Source: Aquimarina sp. BL5
GTDB taxonomy: Bacteria > Bacteroidota > Bacteroidia > Flavobacteriales > Flavobacteriaceae
Direction of reading: 5' to 3'
NCBI RefSeq assembly: GCF_003443675.1
Contig: NZ_CP031963.1
Coordinates: 4,624,501-4,688,500 of the forward strand
Length of the DNA stretch: 64,000 nt
The notes under the pieces are model-generated. The model saw only the letters and a list, made by a program, of their open reading frames with translations, had not been told where the DNA came from and ran no database searches. Below, piece by piece: positions 1,121 through 61,332 of this stretch; position 1 is the stretch's first letter; every line of letters begins with the position of its first letter. Made by a program: the position numbers and the translations under genes.

Positions 1121-1624
1121 ATGGAAAAAGGTGATTGCTTAATATTAAAAAATAACGATGTATATTTTGCAATAATACTTCATCACTCAACCTTTGATGA
1201 TGGAGAATTATTTCATGCATTTGTAGTTATTGGAGACCAGTACTCGAACACACCAACACTTAAAGAAATCGAATTTGGAAAAATTTTGGGATATAAGTTC
1301 GTTGATAAAACTTCTGACCTAATGAATAGTCTTGCTTGGACAAGTAAAGAACACAACCCATCCGAATTATACAACGGAGTTAAATATGATGTATTTACCA
1401 TACCAGATGATCTATTTAATGAAGAAACAAATAGAATTCAAAGAATTGGAAGAGTGAATTTACACGAAAAATTTTTCCCTCGACCTGAATTTCATTCTAT
1501 AGTTTCAAACTATGAAAAATTAGTTAAAGTCATTTCTGAACGAATTTCAAAAAGAGATCCTTCAAAGGTAGAATGGAACAGGTTTTATGATGCATTTAAA
1601 CTTAATGAGGTATTAAAAAAGTAG
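1121..1624 (+). CDS. Hypothetical protein, 167 aa (cassette-like)
   Basis: Soluble, charged 167-residue protein of unknown function, no signal peptide. It resembles many orphan proteins found between mobile repeats. Its stop codon is directly followed by the attC-like repeat at 1623-1799, so it sits where a cassette gene would sit. The upstream 570 bases hold no gene. I recognise no domain; a role cannot be assigned. Confidence 0.65.
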   Translation: MEKGDCLILKNNDVYFAIILHHSTFDDGELFHAFVVIGDQYSNTPTLKEIEFGKILGYKFVDKTSDLMNSLAWTSKEHNPSELYNGVKYDVFTIPDDLFNEETNRIQRIGRVNLHEKFFPRPEFHSIVSNYEKLVKVISERISKRDPSKVEWNRFYDAFKLNEVLKK

Positions 1625-1799
1625 ATAACACCATATATGTGATCATAACAGGTTTTGGTGATCAATAGAATGGTTTGTGTGTTTTTGGTATGGCGCAATG
1701 CTTGCTGAAAGAGAAAATATAGCAACCAATGCGCAGAAAAGTCGAAAAGCTCGGTAACGTTTTGCCCTGTTACGACACATATATTAAACGTTGTGCAAC
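1623..1799 (+). repeat. attC-like imperfect palindrome (site A)
   Basis: About 177 bp between two small genes. It starts AGATAAC and ends with GTTGTGCAAC. Outer arms ATATATGTG (1633-1641) and TAACAGG (1646-1652) pair exactly with CACATATAT (1776-1784) and CCTGTTA (1766-1772), separated by a 4/3-base internal loop. An inner imperfect hairpin runs GCGCAATGC...GCATTGG-like (1693-1735). It aligns along most of its length with the spacers at 57.6-60.4 kb taken on the minus strand. These features match integron attC sites; naming it attC is an inference. Confidence 0.6.
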
Positions 1800-1809
1800 A
1801 TTAAGACAA

Positions 1810-4549: not shown

Positions 4550-5287
4550 TTACTGAATAAATGTTACTCTATCGATCAGTCCATTTTTTACTTCATAAAC
4601 AGCAACGGCCCGTATAGTAATTCCTGCATTAAGCTGAACCAATTCTTGATCAATCACAATGGTAACCATCACTAAGCGTTTTTTTATTATACAATGTAAA
4701 CTGGGTGTGTTTTTAAATAACATACCATAGATTCGTCTAAGTTCACTATGCCCTGATGTTTTAAATCTATCCGGAAAGTCGTATATCTTTATGTCTTCTG
4801 AGTATGTGTTTACAAAAGCATCGATATTTCTTCCATTATAGGCCATCAGTTGTTTGTCAACTATAAACCGAGGGTCAGGATTGGTGATGGCTTCTCCCAA
4901 AAGAATGGTCATTGATTTGATCTTATCTTTTTTGAATTTATAAAAAACAATACGCTCCAGATTTTTGGTTGGAGTTTTTACAAGTTCCTTATCAATAATG
5001 ATCCCTCTAAAGATAATACGGTCTAAAAGTTCTATGGCATCAGTTTTATTTTCAGAAAAGGTGTTTTGATAATAGCCACTGATTTCCTGAGTACCTTTTG
5101 CTATTTTTTGTTTTGGAAAAAGCGAAATTGTAGCTTTTTCGTGAAACAAACTATTCATAGAGGTCAACGCTTTCGTATTAAATGCGATTTGCTTTTTTTC
5201 TAAGGTAGTAAGTGTTTTTTCTTTTTGAGCAGATAACTAATTAGTATGAAAAGACAGTAATAATGATAGACAAACAATTTTTTTCAT
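4550..5287 (-). pseudogene. NTF2-like/SnoaL-type secreted protein, interrupted by an in-frame TAG
   Basis: The intact frame (4550-5167) holds about 205 residues with an NTF2-like C-terminal half (DKQLMAYNGRNIDAFVNTYS) and probably a second degenerate NTF2-like half before it. The same frame continues upstream to an ATG at 5287 that encodes a good signal peptide, MKKIVCLSLLLSFHTN-stop-LSAQ, with TAG at 5237-5239 at codon 17. Without that stop the gene would be a normal 245-residue exported protein. So it is either a nonsense pseudogene or a sequencing error; internal initiation at 5167 would give a protein without export signal. Confidence 0.7.
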
Positions 5288-8838: not shown

Positions 8839-10114
8839 ATGAATCGCAAAAGTATCATTATGAAATATTATATATTTTTCCTGTTATCGATTGTTGTCAA
8901 TAGTGCATTTAGTCAAGTTGGAAATAATGCATTGATATCTCTAGAGCGTCATTCCTTTTCTTCGAAGATTTTAAAAGAAGAGCGAAGTTTTCAGGTGTAT
9001 TTGCCACCTAGTTATTTTTATAGTGATGAAGGTAACTTTCCGGTATTGTATCTTATGGACGGAGATTATAATTTTTATCACGATACTGGACTCATTGAAT
9101 TTTTGTCTTCCGTAGCAGGTAAAATTCCAGAAATTATTGTCGTAGGGATTTCAGATAAAGGCAGTACTAAGTATAGGGAATATTGTCGGCCTAATGCAGA
9201 AGGATCAGAAGGAGGAAGTGCAAATATATTTATGTCTTTTTTAGAAGAAGAATTAAAACCATTGGTTAATAAAAAATACAGAACATCGGCTTATGATATT
9301 TTAATAGGTCATTCTATGGGCGGTTTATTTGTAACGAATCATTATCTAGAAAAACCAACTGCATTTGATAGTTTTATTGCAATTGATCCTTCGCTATGGT
9401 GGAAAGACTATGCGCTTACCAAAAAAGCGGACACGATTTTTAAAGATCAAAAAGAGCTAAGTGCTAATTTGTTTATATCATTGGCTAATACACAAGGTAT
9501 GGGCGTTAGAGGATTTGTTGGTGTGTTAGACACGTATTTTCCATATGATCCTAAGTGGAGTTTTACACATTATAAGGGTGAGAATCATGGATCTGTGCAT
9601 ATGATCGCGATTAAAGAAGCTTTATTAGAATTATTTGAAGATTGGGAAGTGAGTCGAGAGAAGTTCTACACTTTTGCATCTTCAAAAGATTTGATAGATC
9701 ATTACAAGAAACTAAATACTAAGTTTGCTACTCAGTTTTCGTTACCTGCGTATAATTTTGGACTATTATAGCAAAAACTTAACAGAAGATATTGCCTTGC
9801 TGGAATCTGAAATAGCAACTCATTTTCCTAATTCTGTGGATGAGTTTTATAATGTTTTAGGACGTTATCATCTCGATGCTAAAAAGTATGAGGAAGCAGA
9901 AAAGACTTATAAGAAGTGCTTAGTAAAACGACCGAATTCATTTCGTGCTCATGATGGTTTATCAAAAGTACATACCGCCAGAAAAGAATTTAAAAAAGCA
10001 GCCGAGTCAAGTCGCCAAGCTATAGTGTATGCTAAAGAGGTAAAGGCAAGACAATGGCAATTAAATGAACTACAATCTAATCTAGACCATATTCTTGAGC
10101 TTTCTAAAAAGTAA
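8839..10114 (+). pseudogene. Secreted esterase (alpha/beta hydrolase) with C-terminal TPR, frameshifted
   Basis: Frame 1 (8839-9771) encodes a signal peptide, an esterase-D/IroE-like alpha/beta hydrolase with nucleophile motif GHSMGG and a C-terminal GENHGSVHM with the catalytic His. It then runs out of frame at LPAYNFGLL. Frame 2 (from about 9760 to 10114) continues with the tail such enzymes have: DYYSKNLTEDI and a TPR-like helical repeat. Removing one T from the TTTT run at 9755-9762 would join them (AYN-LDYYSK). So this is one gene with a +1 frameshift, natural or a sequencing error. The signal peptide may start at the second ATG (8860). Confidence 0.75.
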
Positions 10115-55959: not shown

Positions 55960-56337
55960 TTACTTTTTTTCTTCTCGCAAGATTTTATCCATTTTACGAC
56001 CTCTTGCCAATTCATCAATCAACTTTTCCATGCGTCTACATTGTTTATATAATTCAAATTCATCTTCTATTTCTTCAATTCGATACCCACAAACGACTCC
56101 CTTAATCAAGTGTGCGTTTGGATGTATTTTAGCTTTTTGAAAAAATGTTCTAAAGGTTACTTTTTCATCAATAAGTGTTTGTAGAGCATCTTTATCAAAA
56201 CCAGTAAACCATTTAATTACTTGATTGAGTTCTTCTTTTGTTCTTCTGTTTTTTTCCAGTCTATTGAGGTAAAGTGGATAAATGGATGCAAATATCATAT
56301 TGGCAACCTTTTCATTTTTTTCGGCTGTAACTTCCAT
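55960..56337 (-). CDS. DUF2200-family protein
   Basis: 125 residues matching DUF2200: VANMIFASIYPLYLNRLEKNRRTKEEL, VIKWFTGFD and VCGYRIEEIED. Cytosolic and helical; function unknown. It follows an attC-like family-2 repeat and could be the next unit of the array, though its own downstream box is not clear. Confidence 0.85.
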   Translation of the reverse strand: MEVTAEKNEKVANMIFASIYPLYLNRLEKNRRTKEELNQVIKWFTGFDKDALQTLIDEKVTFRTFFQKAKIHPNAHLIKGVVCGYRIEEIEDEFELYKQCRRMEKLIDELARGRKMDKILREEKK

Positions 56338-56344
56338 TTTTATT

Positions 56345-56470
56345 TTCTTTTGAATTGATTGGTGCTAACATGTTTGTAAATAGATTGTTGGGTGTTTTTA
56401 ATCACCTAATTTAGCAAATAGAAATTGAATAGAAAATCCGTGAGAATTTTCGTAAACAGTCTAGAACTAG
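56345..56470 (-). repeat. attC-like repeat, family 2 (after the MORN/TPR gene)
   Basis: On the minus strand: ACTAGTTCTAGACTGTTTAC, CACGGATTTTCTATT, TTGCTAAATTAGGTG, CACCCAACAATC and GTTAGCACC. It aligns with the repeat near 61230-61320 (ACTAGT..CTG.TTAC..CGGA.TTT.TAT) and ends with GTTAGCA, a GTTRRR-type box. It sits between the MORN/TPR gene and the DUF2200 gene. Confidence 0.45.
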
Positions 56471-56475
56471 TTTTA

Positions 56476-57630
56476 CTATTTGCAATGTTTTTCTAATGCT
56501 TCTAAAACCATCCAATTATTATCTCCAAGTGACACAGCTTTTTTTAGATCTGCACAAATTTTGTCCGATTCTGATTCTGGAATTTTAGCTTTTTTTGTTG
56601 CGATTATTTGGATGTCTTTTGATTTTGATAAGGTTCTTCCATTTCCAAGTTCGTGCTTTCTAATTAATGCAAAAGCTCGATTCGAATATGCATTCGTAAA
56701 ATAGGGCTCAATCTCCAAAGTTTTGTCAAAATCTTTGATTGCCTCATCAAATTTAAAATTGTTAAGTTTTGCAGTAGCTCGTGCAAAATATCCGTCAGCC
56801 CAATTTTCGTTAAGCTCAATACACTTTGAATATTTTTTTATGGCTGATTTAAAGTTTCCTTGTTTATAATATGTTTGAGCTTGATTATAAATTTCAAAAA
56901 TCTTATCATTTATCTTATCTTTTTGATAAACTCCTTTAATATAAACGGTTTTACCTTTTTCTTTTCCAGTTGAGTAATATGAAACAGATTCGCCATCCAT
57001 TTTTCCATTATCGTTAAATGTAGTCCGCTGTTTTAATTGTTGATTTGGATGATACATTTCCCAAATTCCAATTTCTTTACCATTCTTAAAACTCCCTTTT
57101 TGCATTAAAGTTCCATCTTTGTAAAATCTTTTTTCCAGTCCGTTTGAAATTCCGTTCTCGTATTCAATTTCATTAGACACATTTCCATTTATGTAGTAGA
57201 GTAGGCGCTTCCCTTTTAATTTACCATTAAACAAAAATCCTTCACCTTCTTTTTTCCCGGTTAGATAATAGTCAATAAATTTTCCCGAATAAGGTGTTGA
57301 ATTATTTTTTAAATACCAACTCCCATTTTTTTTGGTCATTAATTTAGTTGTGGGAATTGCTTTAATGCTATCTGGTCTTTTGATATATTCTTTTGTGAAA
57401 ACATAAATAATTCCATCGAAATCTTTGTAGCCTAAAGATTCCATAGCTTTTTTGTCTTTTACGATAACTACATTATCAATTTCATTTTCTGTTAATGTCG
57501 CAAATTCTTCCTTTGGTTCTTCGATAACTGGAATTGAATCGACAACGTATAAGACGTTCTCATTTTGATTCTGACTGAAGGAAATTATAGGTGATAAAGT
57601 CAGTAGTAAAATCAGTATTTTGTTTTTCAT
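56476..57630 (-). CDS. MORN-variant (YwqK-like) and TPR protein
   Basis: 384 residues. Signal peptide (MKNKILILLLTLSPIISFSQ), then repeats of the MORN-variant type (GKKEGEGFLFNGKLKGKR, NGISNGLEKRFYKDGTLMQKG), and at 265-345 two TPR repeats (AIKKYSKCIELNENWADGYF, AIKDFDKTLEIEPYFTNAY). Such toxin-antitoxin-like YwqK/TPR proteins are common orphans in flavobacteria; function unknown. It is the last gene before the family-2 repeat. Confidence 0.8.
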   Translation of the reverse strand: MKNKILILLLTLSPIISFSQNQNENVLYVVDSIPVIEEPKEEFATLTENEIDNVVIVKDKKAMESLGYKDFDGIIYVFTKEYIKRPDSIKAIPTTKLMTKKNGSWYLKNNSTPYSGKFIDYYLTGKKEGEGFLFNGKLKGKRLLYYINGNVSNEIEYENGISNGLEKRFYKDGTLMQKGSFKNGKEIGIWEMYHPNQQLKQRTTFNDNGKMDGESVSYYSTGKEKGKTVYIKGVYQKDKINDKIFEIYNQAQTYYKQGNFKSAIKKYSKCIELNENWADGYFARATAKLNNFKFDEAIKDFDKTLEIEPYFTNAYSNRAFALIRKHELGNGRTLSKSKDIQIIATKKAKIPESESDKICADLKKAVSLGDNNWMVLEALEKHCK

Positions 57631-57648
57631 TCTTAATTTTTTCAGCTT

Positions 57649-57820
57649 GTTGCCAAGGTTTAATATATGTGTCGTAGCGAGGTAAAATGTTACCTAGTCT
57701 TGGACATTATCTACGCATTGATTGCTATATTTTCTTTTTACAAGCATTACGCTTTCTTAAATATACAAAGACCATTCGATTTAGCAAGAAACAGCTATGA
57801 TCATACATATAGTGTTAAGT
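57649..57820 (-). repeat. attC-like site B
   Basis: Minus strand, begins TACTTAAC right after the stop of the 57826 gene and ends CCTTGGCAAC. Outer arms TATATGT (near 57810) and TAGC pair with ACATATA and GCTA near 57660-57680; inner arms include GGTCTT with AAGAC. The same length and order as sites A, C, D and E. Its start box ACTTAAC matches the consensus RYYYAAC. Confidence 0.6.
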
Positions 57821-57825
57821 ATTTT

Positions 57826-58224
57826 TTATTTTTTCATCGATTTTAGTCTCTTTAACCTCAAAGCTATTTCAATAGATACATAGAGAAGAACTACAAAAAT
57901 TAAACACATTATCGTAATAAAAATTAATTCAGGTTTGGTTTGAAGTTCGGTATATATTTCTAGAATTATAAATATTTTGGTTATTGTCAATATAAAAAGT
58001 GTCGTATAGATAATCCAATTATTTTTTGTTTTATCATTTAAGATTTTATTTATTTTCAGGAGGCTATAACCTACAAACACACAACAGGAAATAATTAATA
58101 ATAGTTGAGAAGTGCTTCCCGGATTATGACTAGAGGAAGCAACAAGAAAAAATACAATTGGAAAAAGTATCGATAATCCAACACAGAATATGCCTAAAAC
58201 TATTCTAACAATATTAAAAAGCAT
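57826..58224 (-). CDS. Three- to four-helix membrane protein (cassette-like)
   Basis: 132 residues with about four hydrophobic segments (LFNIVRIVLGIFCVGLSILF, LLLIISCCVFVGYSLL, YTTLFILTITKIFII, IFITIMCLIFVVLL) and a basic C-terminal tail. No known family. The unit from 58259 to 57814 is bounded by GTTAAGTA and TACTTAAC, exact complements, so it is the clearest cassette-like unit. Flanked by attC-like sites C and B. Confidence 0.7.
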   Translation of the reverse strand: MLFNIVRIVLGIFCVGLSILFPIVFFLVASSSHNPGSTSQLLLIISCCVFVGYSLLKINKILNDKTKNNWIIYTTLFILTITKIFIILEIYTELQTKPELIFITIMCLIFVVLLYVSIEIALRLKRLKSMKK

Positions 58225-58252
58225 TTCTCCTAGTGGGTTTATAAGTAATTGT

Positions 58253-58424
58253 ACTTAACGTTTAATATATGTCTCATTATAGCAAGGCACAATGTTATCT
58301 AATTATGGACAAGTCTTCACTTATTTTATACATTATTTTACTTTATAAAACAGTAGACCATTATAAATATACAAAGACCATTCGATTTAGCAAGAAACAG
58401 CTATAATCACATACTTGATGTTAC
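58253..58424 (-). repeat. attC-like site C
   Basis: Minus strand, starts GGTAACATC, ends ACGTTAAGTAC with the GTTAAGT box fitting GTTRRRY. Arm ATTATAGC (58407-58400) pairs exactly with GCTATAAT (58283-58276) and TATGT with ACATA. The middle (TGGTCTTTGTATATTT) is shared with site B. It separates the small membrane ORFs from the 57826 gene. Confidence 0.65.
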
Positions 58425-58476
58425 CATAAGTGTTTTATTATTTATTTTCATTACTCATATACGTTATGAGCGGGTT

Positions 58477-58551
58477 TTAAATTCTATCATTATTCATAAA
58501 ACTTGCTGCAAAAACTCCTATTACAATGTACATAAGTAAATTCCGAATCAT
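58477..58551 (-). CDS. Tiny membrane protein, 24 aa
   Basis: Too short for ordinary gene finding. ATG at 58551 reads MIRNLLMYIVIGVFAASFMN and ends ..NDRI before TAA. Single hydrophobic helix. Its ATG overlaps the stop of the preceding ORF (ATGA at 58551-58548). Likely translated by coupling if real. Function unknown. Confidence 0.4.
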   Translation of the reverse strand: MIRNLLMYIVIGVFAASFMNNDRI

Positions 58552-58655
58552 ATTAATTTTAATTTGAGATTGGATTCTTTGAAGATGAGTATAATTACAA
58601 AAATTACAAGTCCTTGGATGATTGTTTTTAGAGCTATGTCTATAATCGTATTCAT
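58548..58655 (-). CDS. Tiny membrane protein, 35 aa
   Basis: Starts MNTIIDIALKTIIQGLVIFV and ends with a short basic tail (NLKLKLI). One transmembrane helix. Both its start and its stop overlap neighbouring tiny ORFs by ATGA, suggesting a chain of translationally coupled small membrane proteins. Not a known family. Confidence 0.4.
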   Translation of the reverse strand: MNTIIDIALKTIIQGLVIFVIILIFKESNLKLKLI

Positions 58656-58747
58656 ACCAAAAAATATCGCAAACGGAGTCCGATGTAAAGTCCGATAATT
58701 AGAGAAATCAAAACGATTTTTGTTATTTCAGATTCCGTTCTTTCAAT
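58652..58747 (-). CDS. Possible tiny membrane ORF with non-ATG start
   Basis: A frame overlapping the end of the gene at 58723 reads ..ESEITKIVLISLIIGLYIGL and ends TGA inside the ATG of the next ORF. It has no ATG; ATT 58747 or TTG 58711 are possible starts. Hydrophobic pattern supports a real membrane segment. Low certainty. Confidence 0.25.
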   Translation of the reverse strand: MERTESEITKIVLISLIIGLYIGLRLRYFLV

Positions 58748-58998
58748 ACGTTTTCCAACTCTTTATCTTTTTTTGAATTTTTTATTATTCGATAAATAAG
58801 GTACATCGGAAATAACATTGGTATAAGAAACGCTATTAAGTTTTTTCTAACACCTAAACTCCAAGATACAATTCCAACCGCAACGATTCCGGCTAGAAAC
58901 CCAATTATTAAAGCATTTACAATTTTTCTCTTTTTTAATTTCTTTTTTTCAATCAAAAGTTCTTCATCAGTTAATTCGGATAGCTTGTTTTTTTCCAT
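58723..58998 (-). CDS. Small two-helix membrane protein (cassette-like)
   Basis: 91 residues from MEKNKLSELTDEELL, with a charged helical N-terminus (IEKKKLKKRK) and two transmembrane segments (VNALIIGFLAGIVAVGIV, LIAFLIPMLFPMYLIYRI) and a basic end. The frame opens earlier at 59070, but those 24 residues lie in the attC-like remnant, so 58998 is preferred. Proteins with this K-rich lead and two helices are frequent uncharacterised genes in flavobacteria. Confidence 0.65.
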   Translation of the reverse strand: MEKNKLSELTDEELLIEKKKLKKRKIVNALIIGFLAGIVAVGIVSWSLGVRKNLIAFLIPMLFPMYLIYRIIKNSKKDKELENVLKERNLK

Positions 58999-59059
58999 TA
59001 ATATTTTTTTATAAATTTCTAGCTTAGCATTAAAGTTTAGTGTAAGAAGCGTTTTAATG

Positions 59060-59082
59060 CTTTGTTGCACAGTGTTGTACTT
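59060..59082 (-). repeat. Truncated attC-like junction (site F)
   Basis: Minus strand: AAGTACAACACTGTGCAACA, just after the stop of the 59093 gene. The first box AAGTACAAC is partly complementary to the GATCGTGCTT that follows site D, and TGTGCAAC matches the end box of site A. The whole inner part seen in sites A-E is missing, so it looks like a site deleted down to its two ends. Confidence 0.35.
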
Positions 59083-59092
59083 GGTTTTTTTC

Positions 59093-59572
59093 TTATTTGT
59101 CTTTCATTGATTTTTTTTTCAAAATTTCAATGATTTCATTTTCTCTTGCTTTGGATATATAAAATTCATTAGATGCTAATATAGCTTTGTGAGTAGAATG
59201 ATTTTCAATAAATGGTATTACTTCAGATTTCACATGCTTTAGCCATGAATCAGCAGATGAGTTGAGTTCTTCAGCATTACATCCTTCTATGGTTTGAATT
59301 TTAATTTTTGCCATCACTAGATATTGATCATTGTAAACATCGCCAATATCGGAATCGTAGTACACTATAGTAGTATCATAAAACCCATATCCGAAAGTTT
59401 TGTATTCAAAGATTATAAAAACTGACAATTCATGCCCTAAGTTTTTGAATAAGCGCTTTGATGTTTTCGTATGTCTTTTAAAATTTACTGTTTTAAAAAA
59501 GGGAACAATTATTTCTTTAAAGATTTTATCAAATTCTCTTTTTCTATTCTTTATGGTAAATTCTTCAGACAT
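59093..59572 (-). CDS. Hypothetical protein, 159 aa (cassette-like)
   Basis: Soluble 159-residue protein without signal peptide, with a mixed alpha/beta pattern (FDKIFKEIIVPFFKTVNFKR). It resembles DUF4304-like orphans but I cannot confirm. Lies between sites D and F in the array. Start at ATG 59572 is 17 bases after the end of the repeat. Confidence 0.65.
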   Translation of the reverse strand: MSEEFTIKNRKREFDKIFKEIIVPFFKTVNFKRHTKTSKRLFKNLGHELSVFIIFEYKTFGYGFYDTTIVYYDSDIGDVYNDQYLVMAKIKIQTIEGCNAEELNSSADSWLKHVKSEVIPFIENHSTHKAILASNEFYISKARENEIIEILKKKSMKDK

Positions 59573-59588
59573 TCGTTTCGTTAATTAA

Positions 59589-59762
59589 GCACGATCTTTA
59601 ATATATGTATTGGAGTAGTGCGAAATGTTACCTTTTTTTCGATATTTCTAGTACATTGGTTGTTAACTTTTCTTTTTTGAGACCATTGCGTCAATGCAAA
59701 AATACTCAGACTTTTCAAATAGTCCCATAACCGCTATGATCAAATATATAGGGTTGTGATAC
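59589..59762 (-). repeat. attC-like site D
   Basis: Minus strand, starts GTATCACAACCC after the stop of the 59764 gene and ends TTAAAGATCGTGC. It shares TTTGATCATAGCGG, GACGCAATGG, AACCAATG and GGTAACATTTCGCACTAC with site E and others, plus ATACATATATTAAA. Start box GTATCACAAC pairs 8 of 10 with the GTTCCGATAC that ends site E. Confidence 0.55.
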
Positions 59763-59763
59763 G

Positions 59764-60252
59764 TTACTTTTTTAATTTCATAAATTCAATCAATTCATAG
59801 GTGTAATCCAAACACTTCTCACAAAAAAGCAATTCGGTTTTTGGTGTAAGAAATCCAATATTCTTGAACTTACAAAATTCCGTCATTGAGGAAAATATAA
59901 TTCCATTAATTGATTTATCAAGTTCTTTTCTCTTTCTTCCGATAATTTTAATAGCTGATTTACGAAATGTTTCTATTTTTAGTTCCAATTTTTGAATCGA
60001 GTCTTGCATTTTTTTTAATTCCGTTGGGGAATAATCTAAGTGCGGAGCATCTGAAATCCTTTTTTGAAAAGGGCGAACTATTAATAAAAGAGAATCATTA
60101 TACTTTTCCTCTAATTCTCTTATAAAATTTTTGTTAGTTTCATATTGCGGTAAAGAGCTTTTTATTTTTTCGTAATCAAAGTATCCTCCCGCATTCTGTC
60201 CAAATCCGAAATTAGAGAATGATAATGATATTATTAAAACAATCGATTTCAT
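59764..60252 (-). CDS. Exported coiled-coil protein, OmpH/Skp-like (cassette-like)
   Basis: 162 residues. Signal peptide MKSIVLIISLSFSNFGFGQ, then a helical, charged coiled-coil region (FIRELEEKYNDSLLLIV..LKKMQDSIQKLELKIETF) with a C-terminal Cys pair (FCEKC). It resembles OmpH/Skp chaperones in size and helix pattern; identity is uncertain. Bounded by attC-like sites E and D with nearly complementary end boxes, so a clear cassette-like unit. Confidence 0.65.
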   Translation of the reverse strand: MKSIVLIISLSFSNFGFGQNAGGYFDYEKIKSSLPQYETNKNFIRELEEKYNDSLLLIVRPFQKRISDAPHLDYSPTELKKMQDSIQKLELKIETFRKSAIKIIGRKRKELDKSINGIIFSSMTEFCKFKNIGFLTPKTELLFCEKCLDYTYELIEFMKLKK

Positions 60253-60256
60253 AAAT

Positions 60257-60397
60257 GTATCGGAACATTTTATATATGTATCGTAGTAGTGCGAAATGTT
60301 ACCTTCCCTTTTGATTTTTCCATTTTTTAAGCATTGCGTTTTACTAAAAATACAATAACTATTATATTGATAATTTAACTTTCAATGTTAGTGTTAC
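60257..60397 (-). repeat. attC-like site E
   Basis: Minus strand, starts CGTAACACTAACATT and ends AAATGTTCCGATAC. It shares AAAACGCAATGCTT and GGTAACATTTCGCACTAC..ATACATATAT with sites A and D but is shorter (about 140 bp) and its left arm is less regular. Confidence 0.5.
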
Positions 60398-60404
60398 GAT
60401 TTCA

Positions 60405-61130
60405 TTACTTTTTAACAAGCCATTGCTCAAAATATAATTTTTCAATCAATTTTCTGTCTGTTGTTTTGATAATTTCTTTAAGAGAATTTGTAATTGATAA
60501 ATCAACCTGATACCATATTAGCTCATCTTCATTATCAAAATCAAAATCGGAGTCAATATCTCTAATGGTTCTAAAAATTATTTTGTCAGTATTTGGAACT
60601 ATTTGATAGGTTTGTAAATTTTCGTTTAATGGAGAAAGTCTAGTTAGTTGACTTCCGTCAATATTGGAAACAAATAGATGAAGAGGATCTTTGAAATTGT
60701 ATTTCTTATCTTTATTATAGTCTGTATCACCGATTTTATATAATATTCTGTCTTTCAAAATTGGACCTGAGTTTTTAATATTACATCTGAAATCTGAAAT
60801 ACGAACTTTAGAATTTGTAAGTAAGCTAGTTTTGTTACTAATGTTGTTGTAAAATAGAATATTCCAATACCTGGGGTAGTTTTCTACTTCGTATTCAGAA
60901 CTACTATATCTTTTCCTGTTGTAACTTTTTTGAGTTGTTATCGGGAATAGTACCTGATTCGTGCTATCTATAAAAGTTAAATCATCATATATAAAGTTAT
61001 ACTCATTCAAAATCGAATCTATTTGGGTTTGAGTAAGGTCTTTTTCCTCAACAATCCCTATTCTAGGTTTGGATTGATTACAAGAAGATAATACTAATAT
61101 AAAAGCAATAAAATTGAATATTTTTTTCAT
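60405..61130 (-). CDS. Lipoprotein, TolB/beta-propeller-like (cassette-like)
   Basis: 241 residues with lipoprotein signal (FIAFILVLSSC) and segments like LFVSNIDGSQLTRLSP and YQIVPNTDKIIFRTIR, which recall TolB/WD40-type propeller blades. No complete propeller is present in this length. Located between the family-2 repeat near 61.3 kb and site E. Unknown function. Confidence 0.7.
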   Translation of the reverse strand: MKKIFNFIAFILVLSSCNQSKPRIGIVEEKDLTQTQIDSILNEYNFIYDDLTFIDSTNQVLFPITTQKSYNRKRYSSSEYEVENYPRYWNILFYNNISNKTSLLTNSKVRISDFRCNIKNSGPILKDRILYKIGDTDYNKDKKYNFKDPLHLFVSNIDGSQLTRLSPLNENLQTYQIVPNTDKIIFRTIRDIDSDFDFDNEDELIWYQVDLSITNSLKEIIKTTDRKLIEKLYFEQWLVKK

Positions 61131-61199
61131 GGTGTATGGTAAGGTAGATAGTTTACACTATTGGTTTTGATAAATGTATGTATTGTTCCTTTCTTTCGA

Positions 61200-61323
61200 A
61201 AGTACGAATATCAAAATATCCTAACAATACATTTCTATAAAATAAATTATATATAAAAAGTCCGCAATATCCATAGTAAGCAGGTAATTACTAGTAAAGA
61301 ATTATAGCGTTGTTAGCTACTGG
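61200..61323 (-). repeat. attC-like repeat, family 2 (after the DoxX gene)
   Basis: Minus strand: AGTAGCTAACAACGCTATAA, ACTAGTAATTACCTGCTTAC, GCGGAC..TTTTTATA and GTATTGTTAGGATATTTTG. TAGCTAAC begins directly after the DoxX stop and GTTAGGA ends it, both of the box type expected. It aligns with the repeats at 56345-56470 and 2325-2388. Confidence 0.45.
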
Positions 61324-61332
61324 ATTTCTTCT

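Follow-up and report, generated by a model that had tools for sequence, protein, structure and literature searches.

An integron-like gene-cassette array in Aquimarina sp. BL5, very probably a satellite of a system run by a tyrosine recombinase lacking the I2 helix

The DNA analysed here, hereafter the window, is a stretch of 64,000 nucleotides (positions 4,624,501-4,688,500) of the 6.01-Mb single-contig chromosome of Aquimarina sp. BL5. Between its positions 56345 and 61323, a preliminary description had reported small orphan genes separated by attC-like sites, in the manner of an integron cassette array deprived of its integrase. That finding is real, and it was understated. The locus is a partly decayed satellite of an integron-like gene-cassette system. 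We consider it very probable that this integrase-less satellite depends on a tyrosine recombinase devoid of the I2 helix of integron integrases, which is encoded at 1,265,673-1,266,815 of the same chromosome.

Features of the window are listed in Table 1. Related imperfect palindromes, all in one orientation, had been described between the small minus-strand genes. This held for four sites (S3, S4, S6 and S7), detected by BLAST or by a covariance model named R1, but not for the spacers at 56363-56470 (outside this subtype), 59000-59092 and 61131-61332. R1 was built on 17 sites of this genome, three of them from the window array; the three best window scores are those of training members, and independent support therefore comes from BLAST. 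The four sites recognised by R1 lie inside 57646-60402, and a profile search for the integrase family gave no match within the window, as had been stated. Such an arrangement corresponds to a CALIN (cluster of attC sites lacking integrase), defined in the consulted part of PMC9668308 by at least two attC sites under 4 kb apart without integrase. In the S4/S3 pair an exact 8-nt inverted copy is preserved: the end of S4 (58252-58259) reads GTTAAGTA, and the left end of S3 (57814-57821), TACTTAAC on the minus strand, is its inverted copy. The R1 scan of the window left spacer S2 outside the R1 subtype; among the matches listed, its DNA recurs in three other genomes (G017, G013 and G025), some of these copies lying in array regions, which is why it was taken as a decayed short-type site. 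No R1 match was obtained at 59000-59092, and the two genes on either side thus seem to form one cassette. The candidate S8 (61131-61332) was dropped, having no match by R1, by the two-arm matrix used below or among the matches listed in relatives. The array may extend past the limit first proposed (56345), up to a DUF2200 gene, because DNA 93% identical to that gene stands between two sites of genome G056.

The sites belong to a family dispersed over the chromosome. With two spacers as BLAST queries, 26 and 28 genome places were found at E≤1; at E≤1e-3, about 20 other places were obtained with one query and 13 with the other. R1 recovered 43 places at E≤1 and 36 at E≤1e-3, which confirms the excess of such sites elsewhere in the genome that a cassette system had led one to expect (one of the 43, at 1,286,606 on the minus strand, E 0.076, is an antiparallel echo of a palindromic site). 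Besides solitary sites, they form clusters, each on a single strand, at about 179-182, 1275-1306, 1645-1666, 4682-4735 and 4995-4998 kb, and the minus-strand array of the window is part of the fourth. R1 sites are present in 36 of 37 Aquimarina genomes. Alignment of full copies showed a conserved body between a left end YAAC-A and a right end that is mostly ATATATTAAACGTTR. AAC was found at the ends of 146, and GTT of 134, of the best 150 of 208 R1 matches; imperfect palindromes with AAC and GTT bounds and a strand asymmetry are features of attC sites as well. The core is GTTRNNNNNMAT. Duplicate sites were removed before the core motifs were counted, as for the covariation and strand-stability counts below, and GTTRN5(A/C)A fitted 203 of 222 sites. 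The core consensus of canonical integrons is GTTRRRY / RYYYAAC, and GTTRRRY fitted 18 of the same 222. No known Rfam family reached its gathering score in the window or in two other loci scanned (L048 and L049). As a separate observation, TAnnTTTG, the −7 promoter box of Bacteroidetes, occurs near nucleotide 58 of the site on the top strand in 75 of 150 sites (at a single place in 71 of these) and on the bottom strand in 3. A promoter for the following cassette might reside in the sites, a matter on which a shuffle control proves little because the sites are homologous.

A signature of integrons is that the bases past the GTT of one site are an inverted copy of the bases before the AAC of the next. 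If circles are cut at GTTR, both ends belong to one cassette, hence the expected match. Pairs of adjacent sites were taken from the best 150 of 208 R1 matches (250-2500 bp apart) and from the sites found with the two-arm matrix (150-2500 bp apart). In the R1 set, 44 of 94 pairs matched over at least 5 bases beyond GTT, and 29 matched over 7; shuffled partners gave 1.8 pairs on average and 7 at most (2000 shuffles), the two ends of a same site matched in 5 of 147 cases, and pairs in reversed order in 1 of 94. With the matrix, 66 of 125 pairs of the genus matched over at least 5 bases, 59 of 74 when the gap was below 900 bp (shuffles up to 8, reversed order 4, same site 5/178). In named genomes, whose sites diverge strongly in sequence from those of Aquimarina, the proportions were 14 of 19 and, for gaps below 900 bp, 11 of 11 (shuffles up to 7, reversed order 0, same site 0/28). 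These pairs came from Winogradskyella ursingii (L177), Seonamhaeicola aphaedonensis (L182), Aequorivita sinensis (L189), Algibacter onchidii (L195), Flavobacteriaceae S0862 (L179, its one pair unmatched) and a Sphingobacteriales metagenome-assembled genome (L216).

Cassettes delimited in this way were also found to be shared as units. For 17 of 102 cassettes of Aquimarina arrays, another genome contains a relative of the whole cassette (at least 80% DNA identity), giving 23 matches. In 21 of these, both ends of the homology deviated by at most 40 bp from the predicted limits, and none ran more than 100 bp into a neighbour. Between G024 and G008, identity is 94.5% over 1000 bp, and the homology sets in 1 bp ahead of the predicted start and halts at the predicted end. 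The longest open reading frame (ORF) lies on the strand of the site in 105 of the 108 cassettes having one of at least 50 aa (two further cassettes have none). As with canonical cassettes, each would thus usually be made of one gene in the orientation of its site, mobile as a unit. Gene order, which the preliminary description had expected to vary, is not conserved: 105 cassette proteins, of median size 183 aa, fall into 98 families, and the pieces of the window array are scattered in relatives among the matches listed. With one member per family, 39 Pfam families were found at E≤1e-5; NADAR, GrpB, superoxide dismutase, SUKH and ASCH are among the 25 listed, each in one member only. A reading of the arrays as defence islands was rejected, with just 6 PADLOC families, one member each, among the 98 proteins. 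Apart from the arrays, a lone cassette with its site was noticed at about 9401-10017 of locus L054 (G000 about 4,485,401-4,486,017), 83% identical to an array cassette of G013 and with no clear array adjoining; it is likely an insertion at a secondary place.

These data bear on whether the spacers could be a repeat family, of the miniature inverted-repeat transposable element or repetitive extragenic palindromic type, lying by chance between small genes. Homologous palindromes are indeed dispersed and some are solitary, as the one at 1621-1801 of the window. Yet the inverted-copy ends are shared with the next element (66/125) and not within one (5/178), homology stops at the cassette limits, and the sites lie downstream of one recombinase, as reported below; we give this explanation practically no credit. 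Spacers enclosed in longer transposable elements, which had been named as a danger for the cassette reading, were probed indirectly: shared units stop at the cassette limits, and fixed terminal repeats were not observed, the outermost bases varying by cassette and matching the other end of the same one, although no transposase search was made.

We then turn to the enzyme. The best match of the genome to the integron-integrase model is the 380-aa recombinase, whose gene stands upstream of the densest site cluster and on the same strand; the host XerD and XerC-like genes are separate. Recombinase, attI-like junction and array, all co-oriented, form a main platform about 3.4 Mb from the window array, and this layout recurs in relatives. 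The recombinase was found at E≤1e-60 in 23 of 33 Aquimarina genomes. Around 24 recombinase loci of the genus, R1 detected 50 sites downstream on the same strand, in 16 loci, none upstream on that strand and one on the opposite strand (E 0.0063); when at least 2 kb of downstream sequence was available, 16 of 18 loci had downstream sites. R1 gave 7 weak matches in 80 named loci and was abandoned as a class-wide detector, in favour of the two-arm matrix and then of a matrix-free junction test. The matrix, trained partly on loci later scanned with it, found 67 sites in 20 of 29 loci of the genus and beyond, all downstream on the recombinase strand and none upstream or on the opposite strand, and none in shuffled sequence that preserved base composition only. 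No site was seen in the remaining nine loci (L262, L268, L271, L273, L275, L276, L178, L180 and L181), some of which have little downstream sequence. Several draft-genome contigs break off just downstream of the recombinase, as repeats would cause.

The start of the arrays was examined by the junction test, which uses no site model. After the recombinase stop codon, many loci display a short palindrome of varying sequence followed by GTTRNNNNNMA, 40-64 nt past the stop in most of them. In Aquimarina sp. BL5 the GTT lies 40 nt past the stop, the junction reads GTTGTGCACA, and its inverted copy opens the site at about 1,267,464. In 25 of 56 loci (7/19 in the genus, 4/5 in named genomes, 14/32 in other loci of the class), the 3 kb downstream contained an exact inverted copy of the 10-nt junction GTTRNNNNNM, for a shuffled expectation of about 0.2 and a score of 1/56 in the upstream 3-kb control; 15 of 71 loci, with less than 1.2 kb downstream, had been excluded, and loci with multiple candidate junctions were scored on any of them, in the shuffled expectation likewise. 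With one mismatch allowed, the figures were 38 loci, 3.1 expected and 8 upstream. The junction would thus be the counterpart of attI, a site beside the recombinase gene where the first cassette starts. In 18 of 32 loci the 75 nt past the stop contain a perfect palindrome whose arms measure 9-14 nt, against shuffled means of 4.5-5.3 (up to 11 in single shuffles).

The 380-aa protein is not an integrase of the IntI type, a type whose presence in the genome the preliminary description had thought worth searching for: none scored above the family cut-off, and the best match was this I2-less recombinase instead. Against profile TIGR02249 it scored 202.9 bits for a cut-off of 265, in two pieces that skip profile positions 181-241. 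Aligned with VchIntIA (2a3v), it matches on either side of the I2 stretch, the interval between the two parts counting 26 residues instead of 69. The stretch ALxxKYPxAGKEWxWFWxFP, which we take to be part of the IntI additional domain, occurs in 12 IntI proteins and is absent from the Aquimarina-type recombinases, so that, at the sequence level, the I2 helix specific to IntI appears to be missing. The protein does exceed the cut-off of the XerA family NF040815 (226.4 bits for 220), and the R, K, H-x-x-R, H and Y residues are invariant across 12 aligned recombinases; the N-terminal region, of about 110 residues, has no Pfam match. In a 56-row tree of the quick kind, with a long XerC branch and supports from the Shimodaira-Hasegawa-like approximate likelihood ratio test only, IntI proteins formed one clade (100) and the Bacteroidia recombinases fell outside it, in a group with proteins of other phyla (96%). 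Relatives at E≤1e-70 were found in 107 of 197 Bacteroidia genomes, some of these matches aligning only from about residue 100 on, outside the N-terminal region. IntI was found above cut-off in one of the 197; this protein, in G190 (L307 / L355), reached 421.9 bits, and those of its best 120 matches that bear a name are integron integrases from other phyla and from archaea.

It could be supposed that a canonical IntI integron built the arrays and was then lost, leaving CALINs next to an unrelated recombinase. The attC-like layout and the ends of the sites would fit such a history. We find it very improbable, given the lack of IntI above cut-off in the genome and its presence in 1 of 197 genomes of the class, the I2-less recombinase heading arrays in several genera, and the match between the junction past its stop and the start of a downstream site in 25 of 56 loci.

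How the sites may be recognised was approached through their folding. Left and right arms covary, with a pairing score of 9.19 against 6.14 for swapped arms (highest of 20 swaps 6.50; 214 sites). Isolated mismatches in the top-strand stem are A.C in 259 cases and G.T in 10, so that T.G wobbles stand on the bottom strand. Folding with DNA parameters predicts that strand to be the stabler one in 190 of 231 sites and the less stable one in 40, as opposed to 81 and 146 for random segments. Integron attC sites recombine via the bottom strand only, according to the consulted part of PMC2727003. From these predictions, recombination of a folded bottom strand is most likely, and is our first choice. 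Alternatively, the same cassette system might work on double-stranded DNA in the manner of Xer, the palindromes being duplex binding sites for which folding is unneeded. The XerA-like nature of the recombinase and its lack of I2 agree with that scheme, as does the perfect palindrome past the stop codon in 18 of 32 loci. A duplex substrate, on the other hand, gives no reason for a strand bias such as the 259 to 10 ratio of mismatches or the stabler bottom strand in 190 of 231 sites, and we consider this alternative rather unlikely, though deserving serious attention.

We therefore retain the folded-strand version of a cassette system headed by the I2-less recombinase. The layout, the predicted cassette limits, the sharing of whole cassettes between genomes, the co-orientation and the covarying arms emerge from comparison of genomes; that the 380-aa recombinase performs cassette recombination, and that a neighbouring zinc-ribbon gene has a role in the system, we infer. 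In the proposed mechanism, the recombinase would recombine attC-like sites with one another and with the attI-like site past its own stop. A cassette would consist of one, sometimes two, small genes and one site. Crossover would take place at the GTTR junction, its exact base being presumed, and the cassette would leave as a circle, which would account for site ends GTTRNNNNNN / NNNNNNYAAC that are inverted copies. The site would most likely act, like those of integrons, through its folded bottom strand, the substrate presumably being single-stranded. New cassettes would enter at attI, and stray ones would land at remote places, such as the window, and then decay.

Several observations weigh against this scheme. 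Recombination itself is deduced from comparing sequences, and the recombinase has no I2 domain, which is held necessary for cassette capture. Ten of 33 genomes of the genus have no recombinase at E≤1e-60, yet nine of these ten have R1 sites. Two genus loci with ample room, L263 and L271, lack a downstream R1 site (the matrix detects one in L263), and upstream of the G004 array only a 24-residue remnant of the recombinase C-terminus was found (L166:11486-11557, minus); that array has probably lost its recombinase. Across 40 loci of the class, the matrix, whose training set was Flavobacteriia, picked up no more than 12 downstream sites, with 0 upstream and 1 opposite, so that sites outside Flavobacteriia are known mainly from their junctions. 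No junction motif follows the stop codon in 7 of 56 loci, including L161 and L195 of Algibacter onchidii. In the genome of Aquimarina sp. BL5 itself, only 2 of 10 pairs match over at least 5 bases, and 2 of 5 with a gap below 900 bp (shuffles up to 3), the matrix having recognised a single minus-strand site in the window; long gaps between sites probably hide undetected ones. Finally, the A.C excess stems from few homologous positions tallied over many sites.

Compared with known systems, the closest likeness is to sedentary chromosomal integrons and CALINs, in the recombinase-attI-array layout, the small, diverse, co-oriented genes, the palindromic sites with AAC/GTT ends, the cassette-end inverted copies, the predicted bottom-strand folding and the recombinase-less satellites. 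The Bacteroidia system differs in its recombinase, without I2 or additional domain and outside the IntI clade, in the orientation of the recombinase gene, which follows that of the cassettes, in its core, and in the divergent zinc-ribbon gene of one branch. The intI gene is usually divergent from the cassettes. The catalytic part of the protein scores as that of XerA-type recombinases, from which it differs by its N-terminal region and by its linkage to cassette arrays. Acinetobacter pdif modules, moved by XerC/XerD, are likewise gene modules bounded by Xer-type recombinase sites. The earlier designation as an integron-like, CALIN-like array is upheld by the inverted copies at cassette ends, the attI-like junction, the recombinase heading the arrays and the sharing of whole cassettes. 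Short duplex dif-like sites and the host XerC/D characterise pdif modules, which are not known to have a long palindromic site or an array headed by attI. As to the integron assignment, the layout of cassettes and sites agrees with it, but the recombinase accompanying the arrays is not of the IntI type: in comparative tests the system appears to work like an integron, yet by its integrase it is not one in the strict sense, because this protein has no I2 and lies outside the IntI clade.

We are inclined to think, with some reserve, that a second integron lineage exists in Bacteroidia, either independent of IntI or predating its I2 helix, and characterised by a XerA-like recombinase that lacks I2 and has an N-terminal region of its own, by sites acting as folded bottom strands and, in one branch, by a zinc-ribbon partner. 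In the consulted parts of PMC9024848, PMC9668308, PMC8618304, PMC2426708 and PMC7790495, Bacteroidota are a phylum with some integrons, known through IntI genes or canonical attC clusters. The complete Bacteroidetes integron named with IntegronFinder 2.0 is that of Salinibacter ruber, the first version having given only In0 elements (PMC9024848, in part). As far as these sources go, surveys based on IntI and canonical attC have not reported an I2-less Bacteroidia system, and none of the titles and abstract openings listed, with few subscription papers and no preprints among them, describes one. Cassette capture is considered to require the I2 helix, which is stated to occur in no other protein, an I2-less ancestor being only postulated (PMC7790495, in part). 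If our reading is true, a working I2-less cassette system would overturn this necessity and make the postulated ancestor testable. Cassette exchange would then be widespread across an extensive class of bacteria, environmental as well as host-associated, where surveys report few integrons, and many flavobacterial orphan genes lying between unexplained repeats would gain a mechanism.

Table 1. Sites and genes of the window array, with the zinc-ribbon gene of the main platform (window positions unless a locus is given)
Feature	Position	Strand	Basis and remarks
Solitary attC-like site, away from the array	1621..1801	+	BLAST; R1 178.7 bits; training member
DUF2200 gene	55960..56337	-	93% identical DNA between two G056 sites
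S2, taken as decayed short-type site	56363..56470	-	Recurring DNA in relatives; short subtype presumed
Cassette gene, 384-aa TPR/MORN protein	56476..57630	-	Pfam search, DNA comparison; relative elsewhere in G017 (80% DNA identity), no site detected beside that copy
attC-like site S3	57646..57823	-	BLAST family in genome; R1 167.7 bits, E 2.1e-27; training member
Cassette gene, 132-aa protein, membrane-like by eye	57826..58224	-	ORF; flanked by 8-nt inverted copies; no Pfam family above cut-off
attC-like site S4	58248..58429	-	BLAST family; R1 119.9 bits; training member
Orphan gene, 91 aa	58723..58998	-	ORF; adjoining DNA 58431-58721 recurs near G017 array (among matches listed)
Orphan gene, 159 aa, seems one cassette with 58723-58998	59093..59572	-	ORF, Pfam search
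attC-like site S6, GTT end decayed	59584..59763	-	BLAST; R1 142.2 bits (59584-59762); training member
Cassette gene, 162 aa	59764..60252	-	ORF, Pfam search; weak OmpH-like match under cut-off
attC-like site S7, shortened/decayed, right half conserved	60255..60402	-	R1 46.7 bits, E 1.5e-5; outside training set
Probable first gene of satellite array, 241 aa, lipoprotein-like start	60405..61130	-	ORF; LPAM_1 under cut-off
Zinc-ribbon gene	L001:655-1032	minus	G000 about 1,265,172-1,265,549

Just upstream of the recombinase gene, and divergent from it, lies a gene whose product, about 125 aa long, has a C-x2-C ... C-x3-C arrangement and, in most cases, an FTHYWKN motif. The first set of loci (23 of the genus, G038 and 8 named) has it in 31 of 32, L195 being the exception, and the class set in 4 of 40, which makes 35 of 72 recombinase loci. 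No Pfam family was recognised in the protein (best E 0.12), and its homologues are annotated at the source as hypothetical or as DUF2116-family Zn-ribbon proteins. A regulator or a recombination directionality factor would be our guess. Between this gene and the recombinase, AT-rich inverted repeats were noticed, for instance at about 9590-9640 of L048; they are of the AATTAAACGTTTA...TAAACGTTTAATT type in Aquimarina sp. BL5, vary by locus, and are a possible operator.

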